A stretch of DNA of 64,000 nucleotides, from positions 124,001 to 188,000 of the forward strand of contig JALHQO010000002.1 in NCBI GenBank assembly GCA_022841905.1, given 5' to 3'. Shown piece by piece: positions 33,112-61,071 of the stretch. Source of the stretch: Hyphomonadaceae bacterium (lineage in GTDB: Bacteria; Pseudomonadota; Alphaproteobacteria; Caulobacterales; Aquidulcibacteraceae). Within the stretch, counting starts at the first letter, position 1. Each line of letters opens with the position of its first letter. The notes under the pieces were generated by a model that did no database searches, was not told the origin of the DNA, and saw nothing but the letters and a program-made list of their open reading frames with translations. The translations under genes were made by a program, and so were the position numbers.

Positions 33112-34260
33112 GTGATGAACAGCGTCTATGCATCCTTCGGCACGACCATCTTCGAAACCATGTCGCGCCTCGCCGCCGAACGCGGCGCGGTGAATCTCGG
33201 CCAAGGCTTTCCCGAAGACGACGGCCCGCGCGACATTCTCGAAGCCGCGGCGCGCGCGACGCTTGAGGGCCCGAACCAATATCCGCCGTCGCGCGGATTG
33301 CCTGAACTACGCCAAGCTGTCGCGGCGCACTATCGCGCGCATCAGAACGAGGAGCTCGATTGGCAGCGCGAAGTCACGATCACATCCGGCGCCACCGAAG
33401 CCATCGCCGCCGCGCTGCTCGCCTTCATCGAACCGGGCGACGAAGTGGTGTTGTTTGAACCCATGTACGACGCGTACTTGCCGATGGTGCGTCGGGCAGG
33501 GGGCGTGGCGCGTGTTGTCCGCCTAGAGGCGCCGCACTGGCGGCTTGAGCGTGAAACAGTCGCGGCCGCATTCAGCGCAAAGACGCGCGTCGTCGTGATC
33601 AACACGCCGCATAATCCGTGCGCCGCAGTGATGAGCCGCGCCGAACTGGAAATGCTGGCGGAGCTTTGCCGTGCGCATAACGCGATCTGTGTCAGCGATG
33701 AAGTTTGGGAGCATGTGCTGTTCGATGGCGCAGAGCATGTCTCGATGCTGGAAGTCATGCGCGAGCGGACGTTGAAGATCGGCTCTGCCGGCAAGATGTT
33801 TTCGCTGACGGGTTGGAAAGTTGGCTTCGCGTGCAGCGCGCCGGCGTTGATGGACGCGTTCGCCAAAGCGCATCAATTCCTCACGTTCACCACGCCGCCG
33901 AACCTGCAACGCGCCGTCACCTACGCGCTGAGCAAGCCGCGTTCATATTTCGAAGAGATGAGCGCTGCTTTCCAGCGGTCGCGAGATCGTCTGGTCGGCG
34001 CGCTCGAAGGGGAGGGGTTTGCGCTGCTGCCGGCGCGCGGCGCGTACTTCGTCAGCATCGATCTGGTCGCGTCGGGCATCGCCATGAGCGACGAAGCCTT
34101 CGCCAAACACGCCATCGAGCACGGCGTGGCGACCATCCCAGTCTCCGCCTTCTACGCCAATCCCAACCCGCCAGCGCTGGTGCGTCTCTGCTCCGCCAAG
34201 CGCGACGAAACGTTGGACCGCGGCGCCGAAGCGCTCGTCCGCGCCAAACGCGCGCTCTAA
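33112..34260 (+). CDS. Aminotransferase class I/II (methionine/kynurenine aminotransferase-like)
   Basis: About 382 residues, PLP-dependent fold type I. Motifs: VNLGQGFPEDDGP, NQYPPSRGLPELR, TSGATEAIAAAL, NTPHNPCAAV (PLP-binding Asn), SDEVWEHVLFD and the Schiff-base Lys in GSAGKMFSLTGWKVGF. The GFPEDDGP start resembles YbdL-type methionine aminotransferases and kynurenine aminotransferases; the substrate is not settled. GTG at 33112 and ATG at 33115 are adjacent starts. It converges with the tiny-peptide operon and shares its terminator. Confidence 0.92.
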   Translation: MMNSVYASFGTTIFETMSRLAAERGAVNLGQGFPEDDGPRDILEAAARATLEGPNQYPPSRGLPELRQAVAAHYRAHQNEELDWQREVTITSGATEAIAAALLAFIEPGDEVVLFEPMYDAYLPMVRRAGGVARVVRLEAPHWRLERETVAAAFSAKTRVVVINTPHNPCAAVMSRAELEMLAELCRAHNAICVSDEVWEHVLFDGAEHVSMLEVMRERTLKIGSAGKMFSLTGWKVGFACSAPALMDAFAKAHQFLTFTTPPNLQRAVTYALSKPRSYFEEMSAAFQRSRDRLVGALEGEGFALLPARGAYFVSIDLVASGIAMSDEAFAKHAIEHGVATIPVSAFYANPNPPALVRLCSAKRDETLDRGAEALVRAKRAL

Positions 34261-34265
34261 AACGC

Positions 34266-34305
34266 GAAGAGCGCCGCGGGGGGAGCTACCCGCGACGCCC
34301 TTCTC
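34266..34305. terminator. Probable bidirectional terminator between aminotransferase and peptide operon
   Basis: Stem GAAGAGCGCCGCGGG (34266-34280) pairs with CCCGCGACGCCCTTC (34289-34303) with two mismatches or wobbles and an 8-base loop. On the minus strand it is followed by GCGTTTTAG. It sits between two convergent transcription units. Confidence 0.6.
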
Positions 34306-34336: not shown

Positions 34337-34429
34337 TTAAGCGACGATCTGTGCGGCTTGGTTCATGACGCTCATGGCGATCGGTGCGAACACGGCGCAG
34401 GCGGCGACCAGGGCGTAAAACTTGGTCAT
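34337..34429 (-). CDS. Tiny signal-peptide-like protein, family copy 2
   Basis: 30-residue protein (MTKFYALVAACAVFAP..., ending NQAAQIVA). Nearly identical in plan to the genes at 34445-34537 and 60897-60989. A Lys at position 3, a hydrophobic core (5-18) and a small-x-small site near residue 20 (AMS) resemble a signal peptide releasing a 10-residue tail; a single membrane helix is the alternative. Translation is supported by AGAGAG before the ATG and by paralogy. It starts 15 bases after the stop of the first peptide, so the two share one transcript. Confidence 0.75.
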   Translation of the reverse strand: MTKFYALVAACAVFAPIAMSVMNQAAQIVA

Positions 34430-34444
34430 CTGCTTGCTCTCTGC

Positions 34445-34537
34445 TCAGGCGACGATTTGCGCTGCTTGGTTCAGCGTGGCGAACGCGACGGGCGCCAGGA
34501 TCATGGCCGCCAACATCAGGGTGTAAAACTTGGTCAT
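34445..34537 (-). CDS. Tiny signal-peptide-like protein, family copy 1
   Basis: 30 residues: MTKFYTLMLAAM at the start, then ILAPVAFA and the conserved tail TLNQAAQIVA. The AFA motif is a good signal peptidase I site, which would free the last 10 residues. Strong ribosome binding site GAGGGAG 8 bases before the ATG, preceded by a 7-bp GC hairpin. First gene of a two-gene operon. Function unknown; no database family is recalled. Conservation of start, length and tail across three copies is the main evidence that it is real. Confidence 0.78.
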   Translation of the reverse strand: MTKFYTLMLAAMILAPVAFATLNQAAQIVA

Positions 34538-34551
34538 TTGGTTTGCTCCCT

Positions 34552-34568
34552 CGGGGCGCCGCGCCCCG
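34552..34568 (-). promoter_or_regulatory. Hairpin before the ribosome binding site, peptide locus 1
   Basis: Perfect 7-bp stem CGGGGCG/CGCCCCG with a 3-base loop, 14 bases before the ATG at 34537. The equivalent position of locus 2 has CGAAGCG/CGCTTCG (61005-61020), so pairing is kept although the sequence differs. Confidence 0.6.
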
Positions 34569-34603
34569 ACCAGACAAACCTAATGCCCCCCTTACCCTGT
34601 CGC

Positions 34604-34619
34604 TGTGACGGTGGGCACA
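34604..34619. promoter_or_regulatory. CRP-like palindrome, peptide locus 1
   Basis: TGTGACGGTGGGCACA, matching TGTGA-N6-TCACA with one mismatch. It lies 66 bases before the first peptide ATG, exactly the spacing of the matching site in locus 2 (61056-61071). A CRP/FNR-family activator site is the simplest reading; the protein that binds is unknown. Confidence 0.55.
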
Positions 34620-58916: not shown

Positions 58917-60295
58917 GCACGACACCGCTTGCGCCCGCCGAGCGCCTCAATCGCGGGGCGTGGTCGTGGGCGCTGTTTGAGTGGGCGCGCAATCCCTACA
59001 TCATTCTCTGCGGCGTCTATGTGTTTGCGCCGTACGTCACCAACATCGTCGTCGGCGATCCTGTGCGCGGCCAAGTCGCGCTCGCTGGTTGGCATACGAT
59101 TTCCGGCATTACCGTTGCGCTCACGGCGCCGTTCCTCGGTGCGGCGGCTGACAGCATGCGCAGGCGAAAGCCGCTCTTGGCGGCGATCCTCGCTGTGATG
59201 GTCGTGGCGATGTTGGCGCAATGGTACGCGATGCCGGGCGGCGCTGGCCTGCCGCTCTGGGGCGTCGGCGCGGCGATCATCGTCGCCGGCATTTGCTTTG
59301 CGTGGACGGAAGTTCTGCACAACGCGATGATTACGAGCGTCGCCTCGCCGCGTTTGGTGCCGGCGGTGTCGGGGCTTGGCTTGTCGCTTGGCAATGCAGC
59401 GTCGGTATTGCTGCTGATTTTCGTGCTGGTGACGATTGCGCTGCCCGGCACGGTGCTGCCAGGCGCGCCTCTGTTCGGACTCGATCCCGCAGCGCACGAA
59501 CCGGCGCGCAGCGTCGTCGTGATTTGTGCGATCTGGATGGCGGCGTTTTCCGTGCCGTTATTCCTTTGGTCGCCCGATGGCGTAGCCGGCGGCGGCGCCA
59601 AATTGTTCGACTCGATCGCGCAGGGCGCAATCAATGTCACGCGCACAATCCGCAAACTGCGCGACTATAAGAACGTCGCACTCTTCCTGCTGGCGCGCAT
59701 GTTCTACGCCGACGGTACGACAGCGATCCTCATCTTCAGCGGCGCTTATGCGTCGGGCGTGATGGGCTGGGATCTGCTGGAGATGCTGCTTTATGGCCTC
59801 TCGCTTTCGATCGTGGCGGTGAGCGGCGGCTTTTTCGGCGCTTGGCTGGAACACCGCATCGGCTCGCGCAACGCGCTGGCCTCGATGATCGCGCTGACGC
59901 TTCTGTGCCTGGTGGCGATGACGTCGATGTCGCTGACCTCGATCCTGTTCATGCCGGCCTCATCGGCGCCGGTGTGGGACGCCCCGGTGTTTCAAAGCGC
60001 GCCGGAACTCGCCTATCTGGGCTTCTCCATGCTGATCGCGATCTCGATCACCAGCGCCATCGCTTCGGGCCGCTCGCTGATGGCTAAGCTCGCGCCGAAG
60101 GGCATGGAGGGCGAACTGTTCGGGCTTTACGCGCTTTCCAACGCCGCCACGGTTTGGCTGGGGCCGATGCTGGTCGAGTATTTCACCTCCGCTTACCAAA
60201 GCCAGCGCGCCGGCTTTGCCTCCATCGCCATTCTGCTGCTGGCAGGGCTCTTGCTGTTGCTTAGGGTTAAACCGCCAGCGGAGCAGAGCGGGTGA
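58913..60295 (+). CDS. MFS transporter, UMF1 (Atg22-like) family
   Basis: 460 residues. Twelve or so membrane helices. N-terminal WSWALFEWARNPYIILCGVYVF and APFLGAAADSMRRRKPLL are typical of the UMF1 family related to vacuolar Atg22; a central loop (about 215-245) holds SIAQGAINVTRTIRKLR. Substrate unknown. The TTG start overlaps the stop of the ubiH-like gene, and its end overlaps the gtrA start as GTGA. Confidence 0.9.
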   Translation: MSTTPLAPAERLNRGAWSWALFEWARNPYIILCGVYVFAPYVTNIVVGDPVRGQVALAGWHTISGITVALTAPFLGAAADSMRRRKPLLAAILAVMVVAMLAQWYAMPGGAGLPLWGVGAAIIVAGICFAWTEVLHNAMITSVASPRLVPAVSGLGLSLGNAASVLLLIFVLVTIALPGTVLPGAPLFGLDPAAHEPARSVVVICAIWMAAFSVPLFLWSPDGVAGGGAKLFDSIAQGAINVTRTIRKLRDYKNVALFLLARMFYADGTTAILIFSGAYASGVMGWDLLEMLLYGLSLSIVAVSGGFFGAWLEHRIGSRNALASMIALTLLCLVAMTSMSLTSILFMPASSAPVWDAPVFQSAPELAYLGFSMLIAISITSAIASGRSLMAKLAPKGMEGELFGLYALSNAATVWLGPMLVEYFTSAYQSQRAGFASIAILLLAGLLLLLRVKPPAEQSG

Positions 60296-60696
60296 CGCCC
60301 GAATTCGTGCAGCAATTCATGCAGCGCGCCGTGGTGCGCGACTTTCTCCGCTTCGCCGCTGTCGGCGCGGTGGCGACGGTCGTGCACTATGCCGTGCTGA
60401 TCGCGATGACGGAGCTTGGCGGCGCAAGCCCGGTCATCGCCACCATTTGCGGCTTCTTCGTCGGCGCGCTGGTGAGTTACACGCTGAACCGCCGCTACAC
60501 GTTCGCAACTAAGCCCGCGTTCGGCAAAGGCTTGCTCAAGTTTCTGCTGGTGATCGCCGTCGGCGCCGTGATCAATGCAGGCATCGTGGCTGCGTTCGTG
60601 AACGCCGGCGTCCACTACATGATCGGCCAAGTGATCGCGACGGGCCTGGTGCTGATCTGGAATTTCGCCGGCGCGCGGCTCTTGGTTTTTCGCTGA
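60292..60696 (+). CDS. GtrA-family membrane protein
   Basis: 134 residues, four membrane helices. GtrA proteins are thought to flip undecaprenyl-linked sugars or assist cell-surface polysaccharide synthesis. Family motifs: FLRFAAVGAVATVVHYAVL, ICGFFVGALVSYTLNRRYTF and LIWNFAGARLLVF. GTG start. No glycosyltransferase gene is near. Followed by a strong terminator. Confidence 0.93.
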   Translation: MTPEFVQQFMQRAVVRDFLRFAAVGAVATVVHYAVLIAMTELGGASPVIATICGFFVGALVSYTLNRRYTFATKPAFGKGLLKFLLVIAVGAVINAGIVAAFVNAGVHYMIGQVIATGLVLIWNFAGARLLVFR

Positions 60697-60706
60697 CGCA
60701 GAAAAA

Positions 60707-60743
60707 GGACGCGGAGGGGAGCAATCTCCGCGTCCTTCTCTAT
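60707..60743. terminator. Bidirectional terminator between gtrA and peptide locus 2
   Basis: Perfect 10-bp stem GGACGCGGAG/CTCCGCGTCC (60707-60716 with 60726-60735). Plus-strand tail TTCTCTAT; minus-strand tail TTTTTCTG. It can end both gtrA and the convergent tiny-peptide operon. Confidence 0.9.
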
Positions 60744-60782: not shown

Positions 60783-60896
60783 CTAAGCGACGAGGCGCGC
60801 GGCTTGAACGAAAACGGTCACCACCAAGGGCGCAAACACCAGGGCGGCTGCGACGAGCGCCAGAACAATGGCCGCGGCGCTGAACTCCTCCCGCAC
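60783..60896 (-). CDS. Divergent member of the tiny signal-peptide-like family, copy 4
   Basis: 37 codons from a GTG that starts one base after the stop of copy 3 (TAAGTG). The last 26 residues align without gaps to copy 3: hydrophobic LALVAAALVFAP, then LVVTVFVQAARLVA in place of the NQAAxIVA tail. No ATG and no properly spaced ribosome binding site for the GTG (GGGAGGAG lies inside the frame), so it may be decaying or use an unusual start. Confidence 0.45.
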   Translation of the reverse strand: MREEFSAAAIVLALVAAALVFAPLVVTVFVQAARLVA

Positions 60897-60989
60897 TTAA
60901 GCGACGATCAGCGCGGCTTGGTTTAACGTGGCCATCGCCATCGGGGCGAACACGGCGCAGGCGGCGATCAGGGCGAAAAACTTGGTCAT
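60897..60989 (-). CDS. Tiny signal-peptide-like protein, family copy 3
   Basis: 30 residues: MTKFFALIAACAVFAP, then MAMA and the tail TLNQAALIVA. It is 22 of 30 or more identical to copy 2 and has the same length. AMA near residue 20 is a good signal peptidase site. GGAGC precedes the ATG by 9 bases. First gene of peptide locus 2, with the same palindrome and hairpin arrangement upstream as locus 1. Confidence 0.78.
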   Translation of the reverse strand: MTKFFALIAACAVFAPMAMATLNQAALIVA

Positions 60990-61004
60990 CTCATTTGCTC
61001 CACT

Positions 61005-61020
61005 CGAAGCGCTCGCTTCG
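61005..61020 (-). promoter_or_regulatory. Hairpin before the ribosome binding site, peptide locus 2
   Basis: Perfect 7-bp stem CGAAGCG/CGCTTCG with a 2-base loop, 15 bases before the ATG at 60989; counterpart of 34552-34568 in locus 1. Confidence 0.6.
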
Positions 61021-61055
61021 ATGAGGAGAAGGTAGGAGCAGGTTAGGGATGGCGA

Positions 61056-61071
61056 TGTGACGGCGGTCACG
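61056..61071. promoter_or_regulatory. CRP-like palindrome, peptide locus 2
   Basis: TGTGACGGCGGTCACG, a TGTGA-N6-TCAC(A) palindrome with one mismatch. It is 13 of 16 identical to the locus 1 site and has the identical 66-base spacing to the peptide ATG. Confidence 0.55.

Follow-up and report, generated by a model that had tools for sequence, protein, structure and literature searches.

A genus-wide multigene family of 30-residue proteins with a signal-peptidase-like site and a palindromic promoter signature in the Caulobacterales

Very short hydrophobic proteins encoded in multiple copies, some in tandem and others dispersed, are known from the type I toxin loci Ldr, Ibs, and Zor of Escherichia coli. 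In Gram-positive bacteria, Phr peptides and other pheromones are made from short precursors in which a signal-peptide-like N-terminal part precedes a short conserved C-terminal peptide, and envelope-stress regulons under ECF sigma factors are likewise a familiar kind of system. A review of type I toxins characterizes these as short hydrophobic proteins of 19–35 aa, describes a search for tandemly duplicated ones, and, with IbsC, ShoB, and DinQ as the exceptions, lists a cationic C terminus for them (PMC8309996). A further precedent is VcdRP of Vibrio cholerae, a CRP-repressed RNA encoding the 29-aa protein VcdP, which is reported to bind and activate citrate synthase (PMC8672173).

The window analyzed here (the whole 64,000-nucleotide stretch from a Hyphomonadaceae genome) contains members of a new family of a familiar kind (micropeptides that are exported or reside in the membrane), set apart by its unusual copy number and characteristic promoters. 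The family resembles Ldr, Ibs, and Zor in its very short, hydrophobic products and its multiple tandem and dispersed copies, but no antisense signature was found for it, its C terminus is not cationic, and it carries an A-x-A site, a QAAxIVA tail, and a palindromic promoter. With VcdP it has in common a length of about 30 codons, a short transcript, and CRP-type control (proposed for our family); unlike VcdP, its members are hydrophobic, signal-peptide-like, encoded in many copies and often paired, and the control would be activation rather than repression. Like Phr precursors, the proteins combine short length, a signal-peptide-like N-terminal part, and a conserved C-terminal peptide, yet the host is Gram-negative, the tail is nearly uniform across the genus, and no receptor-like neighbor recurs. 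Part of the family lies behind the motif GCATCC-N16-GCATCT, as do a DUF6249-ECF operon, GIN-domain genes, and efflux genes, which recalls ECF-sigma regulons, whereas most copies in the genus use the palindromic signature instead.

That the family is new, as a first-pass annotation of this DNA had proposed, is borne out by the library searches: Pfam and NCBIfam returned no match for the three window proteins at E ≤ 1, and PADLOC none for 44 family members at E ≤ 0.1. The marginal hits of these 44 members elsewhere are read as chance, namely one member in PHROGs (E 0.063, at a cut-off of E ≤ 0.1) and, in Pfam, a PsbX-like family (four members, best E 0.0063 over 44 scans), which was rejected, and one other family (one member, E 0.051). 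A full-text literature search limited to one collection gave no mention of three family peptide strings.

Loci in the window and extent of the family

Three ORFs on the minus strand of the window encode exactly 30 aa each and share the MTKF start and NQAA(Q/L)IVA end that had been ascribed to them, and all three match the family. Two form a tandem pair, with the first gene at 34445–34537 (MTKFYTLMLAAMILAPVAFATLNQAAQIVA) and the second at 34337–34429 (MTKFYALVAACAVFAPIAMSVMNQAAQIVA); the third copy (MTKFFALIAACAVFAPMAMATLNQAALIVA) lies at 60897–60989. A fourth ORF on the same strand (60783–60896), immediately behind the stop codon of the third copy, had been described as a divergent member: it does exist and encodes 37 aa, but it begins with GTG, lacks MTKF, and matches the family weakly (E 0.009 and 0.025). 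Two loci in other genomes (L085 and L103) share the GtrA-like neighbor but have an ordinary copy with ATG and MTKF as their second gene, and the window ORF therefore appears to be a second gene that has diverged or is decaying. Compared by eye with the aligned records of ULC027bin2 (L197, L228), a very close relative, the three window genes show two changes of amino acid and six silent changes: each protein of the tandem pair differs by one amino acid, the third is the same protein with two silent changes, and the 37-aa ORF is nearly identical.

Both loci have further elements on the minus strand. Upstream of the tandem pair, an exact match to the promoter pattern described below (34577–34618) comprises the palindrome GTGCCCACCGTCAC (34605–34618) and TAGGTT (34577–34582); a 5′ leader hairpin predicted by folding, TCGGGGCG-cgg-CGCCCCGA (34551–34569), stands immediately 5′ of the ribosome-binding site, and 3′ of the pair an imperfect inverted repeat found by eye (34267–34305) is a putative terminator common to the convergent gene at 33112–34260. 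At the 60-kb locus, the corresponding elements are another exact pattern match (61029–61070; palindrome GTGACCGCCGTCAC at 61057–61070 and TACCTT at 61029–61034), a predicted leader hairpin TCGAAGC-gagc-GCTTCGA (61004–61021), and the inverted repeat aaggacgcggag...ctccgcgtcctt (60705–60738; by eye), a putative terminator common to the convergent gene at 60292–60696. With up to two mismatches allowed, the promoter pattern matches the window twice, against a mean expectation of 0.01 from shuffling. The motif GCATCCAANCGC occurs there 5 times versus 4.1 expected, and no known RNA family was matched within the window in Rfam.

Rather than being confined to two loci, as had been thought, these genes form a dispersed multigene family, the window's own genome alone giving 18 matches at E ≤ 10 (11 at E < 1e-6) with a profile from the three window proteins. 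A search of 299 genomes of the order with 44 members gave matches in 36 of them (E ≤ 0.001). Homologues occur in 29 of the 30 same-genus genomes, with at least 10 matches in 22 of the 30 and between 1 and 24 per genome at this threshold (up to 25 at E ≤ 1); the one same-genus genome without a match (G028) is 57% complete. Six genomes from other genera of the same family also have matches (E ≤ 0.001), and a match in G272, 24 residues inside a 617-aa frame, was judged spurious. The named family-bearing records are all MAGs, labeled mostly Hyphomonadaceae, Caulobacterales, or Alphaproteobacteria, and one Terricaulis sp. Copies were sampled from 99 stretches, taken from the best matches listed plus the window, and further copies exist. 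The sample holds 173 copies at E ≤ 0.01 (8 of 181 matches exceeded this value, including the diverged window ORF and a 33-aa copy whose promoter is at G020:C1:1393862), with lengths of 29–46 aa: 144 are 30 aa long, 13 are 31, and 9 are 29. The start codon is ATG in 171 of the 173.

A phage or plasmid origin was rejected, as plasmids, phages, and viral contigs gave it no support (plasmids and phages had no match to one 30-aa query at E ≤ 1, and none of 23 pattern matches in viral contigs was confirmed) and some loci have neighbors in common across genomes, such as an rlmJ-like gene in 7 and a radical-SAM-like gene in 8. The recurrent neighbors are mutually unrelated, and the sampled loci revealed neither a functional partner nor a recurrent receptor-like gene among them; GtrA, rlmJ, radical SAM, and pbpC are the names we presume for neighbors from their sequences. 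At L066, L076, L083, and L104, clusters of several divergent copies, partly with the second promoter type, adjoin genes that we take to be pbpC-like.

The 30-residue protein is under purifying selection. Over the 140 of 173 copies that are distinct and have 30 codons (paralogues and orthologues mixed), mean pN is 0.208 and mean pS 0.503, so that constraint acts at the protein level. Both outcomes that the first-pass annotation had named as refuting, a lack of homologues elsewhere and a lack of protein-level constraint, were thus checked, and each check favored the family. In these 140 sequences P16 and A25 are invariant, Q24 and A18 occur in 139 each, and K3 occurs in 137 (R in two); A10 is also nearly invariant, and third codon positions vary. 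Conservation of K3 and A10 is on par with that of the C-terminal tail. Following K3 is an almost uncharged hydrophobic stretch of about 19 residues (mean Kyte–Doolittle value 2.4 over residues 4–14), and none of the 144 proteins of 30 aa has an acidic residue.

Operon layout and promoters

Most loci are autonomous operons consisting of a palindromic activator-type site, a −10-like element, a 5′ hairpin, a ribosome-binding site, one or two genes, and a terminator; tandem pairs account for 56 of the 117 sampled operons and single genes for the other 61. Upstream of 103 of 116 first genes (one of the 117 was left out, having <150 bases upstream), the palindrome GTG(A/C)C-N4-GTCAC reaches a score of 9 or more out of 12, and the TA of TASSTT stands at ungapped spacing from it in 100–101 of these 103. 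Among the 56 second genes, one reaches a score of 9 and none exceeds it; 65 of 1160 shuffled upstream regions reach 9. Exact matches to the full pattern number 40 across five genomes. Intact copies follow 38 of them, counting the 33-aa copy whose promoter is at G020:C1:1393862; a decayed copy (L190) follows another, and the last stands before an ECF sigma gene of the window's own genome. Because the pattern was derived from the copies, 38 of 40 tests its specificity and not its discovery. The reversed pattern has no exact match in the window's own genome, and with at most two mismatches it gives 1, 0, 4, 1, and 1 matches in the five genomes, versus 14, 17, 18, 15, and 13 for the real one. The 37 inexact matches precede further copies as well as other genes, including ones for small or secreted proteins without a Pfam match. 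The palindrome alone (GTGAC-N4-GTCACRKC) precedes copies at only three of six sites in the window's own genome, and at seven of eight in G023. At class II CRP/FNR promoters, an activator palindrome (TGTGA-N6-TCACA) is centered near −41.5 and is accompanied by a −10 element; a transcription start at the A of CATCG would place the center of the family palindrome at −41.5.

Other genes also carry this promoter. In the window's own genome, near-identical ECF sigma genes stand behind it at G000:C25:3641 (L151, L189) and C23:3294 (L188), the former a PF07638 member and the latter apparently split into two frames. The L151 gene was considered as a master regulator and rejected, as it is absent from the ORFs inspected downstream of pattern matches in four other genomes. 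At L182, L183, L187, and L342, the gene for a second small membrane-like peptide (37–44 aa) is followed by one for a secreted-looking protein of ~350 aa, and one such peptide/protein pair had no Pfam match; the peptide gene has the palindromic promoter with one mismatch in the genus and GCATCC-N16-GCATCT in a sister genus.

Leader hairpins of at least 5 bp occur in 73 of 96 distinct leaders, compared with 10% of shuffles, and comprise 35 distinct stem pairs; thus, the structure of the leader has been kept while its sequence changes. The mean folding z-score of the leaders is −1.3 (below −1 in 56%), and in most of the folds inspected the main stem does not include the ribosome-binding site. Perfect hairpins with stems of 7 bp or more occur in the 160 nt after the last gene in 87 of 117 operons (3 of 117 shuffled), with at least four T in the following eight bases in 69 of the 87, and there is little conservation of primary sequence downstream of the last gene.

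The two genes of a pair differ at particular residues: position 19 is F, Y, or W in 38 of 39 first genes and M, L, or I in 39 of 52 second genes, and position 11 is C in 15 of 39 and 45 of 52, respectively (genes not encoding 30 aa, 17 of 56 first and 4 of 56 second, are left out). Strictly separate first- and second-gene lineages were rejected: mean identities differ between the two types (permutation 0/2000), yet only 54 of 112 genes find their best match beyond their own pair in a gene of the same position, and mixing of the lineages is therefore likely.

The window's own genome has 17 CRP-type HTH matches above the cut-off, 12 of which were inspected. One of them, at C11:128669-129355, has cNMP-binding and HTH_Crp_2 domains with a CRP-like SREKVNR helix, and its orthologues at E ≤ 1e-50 are present in 32 of 35 family-holding genomes and 3 of 264 others, a distribution confounded by descent and obtained with a cut-off set after the result was seen (at 1e-15, 83 of 299 genomes match). 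In G020, a family promoter lies ~150 bp after the CRP-type gene. As four other inspected proteins carry RE-x-V-x-R helices, the assignment of this protein as the regulator of the family is only a lead. A copy with a truncated C terminus is located ~1.3 kb after the CRP-type gene in the window's own genome (G000:C11:130708; L054).

The motif GCATCC-N16-GCATCT lies upstream of most of the 13 first genes that lack the palindrome and of several copies in sister genera, in which two other copies have the palindrome (L254, L261). It occurs 10 times in G000, 12 in G023, 8 in G117, 8 in G036, and once in G034, a genome without a peptide-family match at E ≤ 0.001 (reversed control, 0). Only a minority of the sites precede the family, and the genes behind the others, which include a DUF6249-ECF-sigma operon, GIN-domain genes, and efflux outer-membrane genes (by Pfam) as well as lipoprotein genes (by eye), point to an envelope-stress ECF regulon. 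In the region at G023:C1:2501981 (L349), a DUF6249 gene, an ECF sigma gene, and a putative anti-sigma gene lie behind the motif, and this system is likely autoregulated; DUF6249-like genes also occur in L324 and L331. At two loci of a sister genus (G117:C2:434545, L326, and C18:61207, L338), the palindrome sits inside the 16-base spacer of the motif, a placement that would suit repression rather than activation.

Cleaved precursors or membrane peptides

The small-x-small site noticed near residue 20 in the first-pass annotation proves to be a strongly conserved signal-peptidase-like motif. Its strict form (A-large-[AS] at 18–20) is carried by 110 of the 121 family proteins and by 2 of the 96 controls, which are internal 30-mers from computed hydrophobic stretches of heuristically called genes and not proven membrane helices. 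The looser AxA type at the same position is found in 114 of 121 and 10 of 96. When the strict motif is sought at any of nine registers, 11 of the 96 controls have it, and only one has it together with a proline four to six residues before the cut, versus 110 of 121 family proteins. Entropies at residues 16–20 are 0.00, 1.98, 0.07, 2.32, and 0.91 (121 distinct proteins). At signal peptidase I sites, residues −3 and −1 are fixed and −2 is free, and the alternation P16-x-A18-x-A20 is therefore as expected for such a site. Length variation among the proteins is N-terminal, with about ten residues between the A-x-[AS] site and the C terminus in the sequences listed, and the family has the positively charged n-region and hydrophobic core of Sec signal peptides. 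Other observations weigh against cleavage. The residue before the cut is V, which would be cut poorly by signal peptidase, in three of six sister-genus proteins inspected and 2 of 121 genus proteins. A weight matrix, built from only 24 roughly sited reference peptides, puts the best cut of 82 of the 121 proteins behind residue 20, with a family score of 5.7 against a reference median of 8.7 (83% above the reference 10th percentile). AlphaFold predicts a single continuous helix over residues 2–29 (mean pLDDT 85), although from a three-row alignment and with little to say on cleavage, and a mature part of ten residues is unusually short. With the site signature weighed against the AlphaFold helix, the V20 copies, the weak weight-matrix scores, and the short product, we give about an even chance that the members of this genus-wide family are very short precursors, exported by Sec and then cleaved.

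The same proteins could instead stay intact as single-span inner-membrane micropeptides with the N terminus inside, packing among themselves or against some larger protein of the membrane, a reading we consider only somewhat less probable; other small membrane proteins that bacteria induce under stress would be their counterparts. The uncharged hydrophobic stretch, the absence of acidic residues, the continuous predicted helix, and a tail conserved as much as the core would all agree with it, and the differences at residues 19 and 11 between pair members could suit heteromers. Conservation, however, shows no helical periodicity (p 0.63 over residues 2–30 of 121 proteins), and a helix-packing face was rejected on that ground; A-x-A with a preceding proline is rare in the control hydrophobic segments, and helix packing does not predict the alternation of P16, A18, and A20. 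Tandem, dispersed, multicopy genes for 30-aa hydrophobic proteins would also be expected of loci similar to Ldr, Ibs, and Zor, in which hydrophobic toxins are held down by antisense RNA. Here, synonymous sites vary, and thus there is no sign of an overlapping antisense RNA; it is this lack of an antisense signature that makes type I toxins less likely, and the little conserved primary sequence 3′ of the last gene, the position of the ribosome-binding site after the hairpin, and the non-cationic C terminus make the toxin reading improbable too. Slighter still is the chance that a dual-function or regulatory RNA is what matters, with the peptide secondary, for which the compact predicted transcript with its conserved 5′ hairpin and terminator would speak, and for which VcdRP offers a precedent (PMC8672173). 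Against this stand the purifying selection at the amino-acid level alongside variable third codon positions, the sequence differences among the 35 types of stem, and the little conserved downstream sequence. The first-pass annotation had suggested signal- or pheromone-like peptides; a species-specific pheromone is an idea that we reject as stated, because the ten-residue tail is nearly uniform across genomes of the genus.

A possible role in the cell envelope

Under the preferred reading of cleaved precursors, residues 1–20, with one Lys, the hydrophobic core, P16, and A18-x-A20, would form the signal peptide, and signal peptidase I would cut after residue 20 to release a neutral ten-residue peptide, typically (T/V)(L/M)NQAA(Q/L/M)IVA, into the periplasm. 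The many copies may provide a large dose under a CRP-family regulator (for most copies), and an ECF-sigma-type promoter would drive a minority of the genus copies and several in sister genera. The peptide, often in two related versions per operon, might function in the envelope of stressed cells, where its conserved non-polar C terminus could bind, for example, a periplasmic protease or chaperone; this is the weakest step of the proposal. Carried to its full extent, the proposal would describe a dose-controlled envelope-stress peptide effector, in which up to about two dozen precursors of nearly constant length, often encoded in two-peptide operons, flood the periplasm with near-identical ten-residue peptides under CRP-type and ECF control, the CRP-type regulator being confined to the genus and neighboring genera; this we put forward as speculative and rather unlikely.

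A family with at least 10 matches in 22 of 30 genomes of its genus is absent from the protein-family libraries searched, and it offers direct handles in the form of one promoter word, one candidate regulator, and one cleavage site. If the proteins are exported and cut, they would be bacterial micropeptides of a new class, with a promoter signature dedicated to them.
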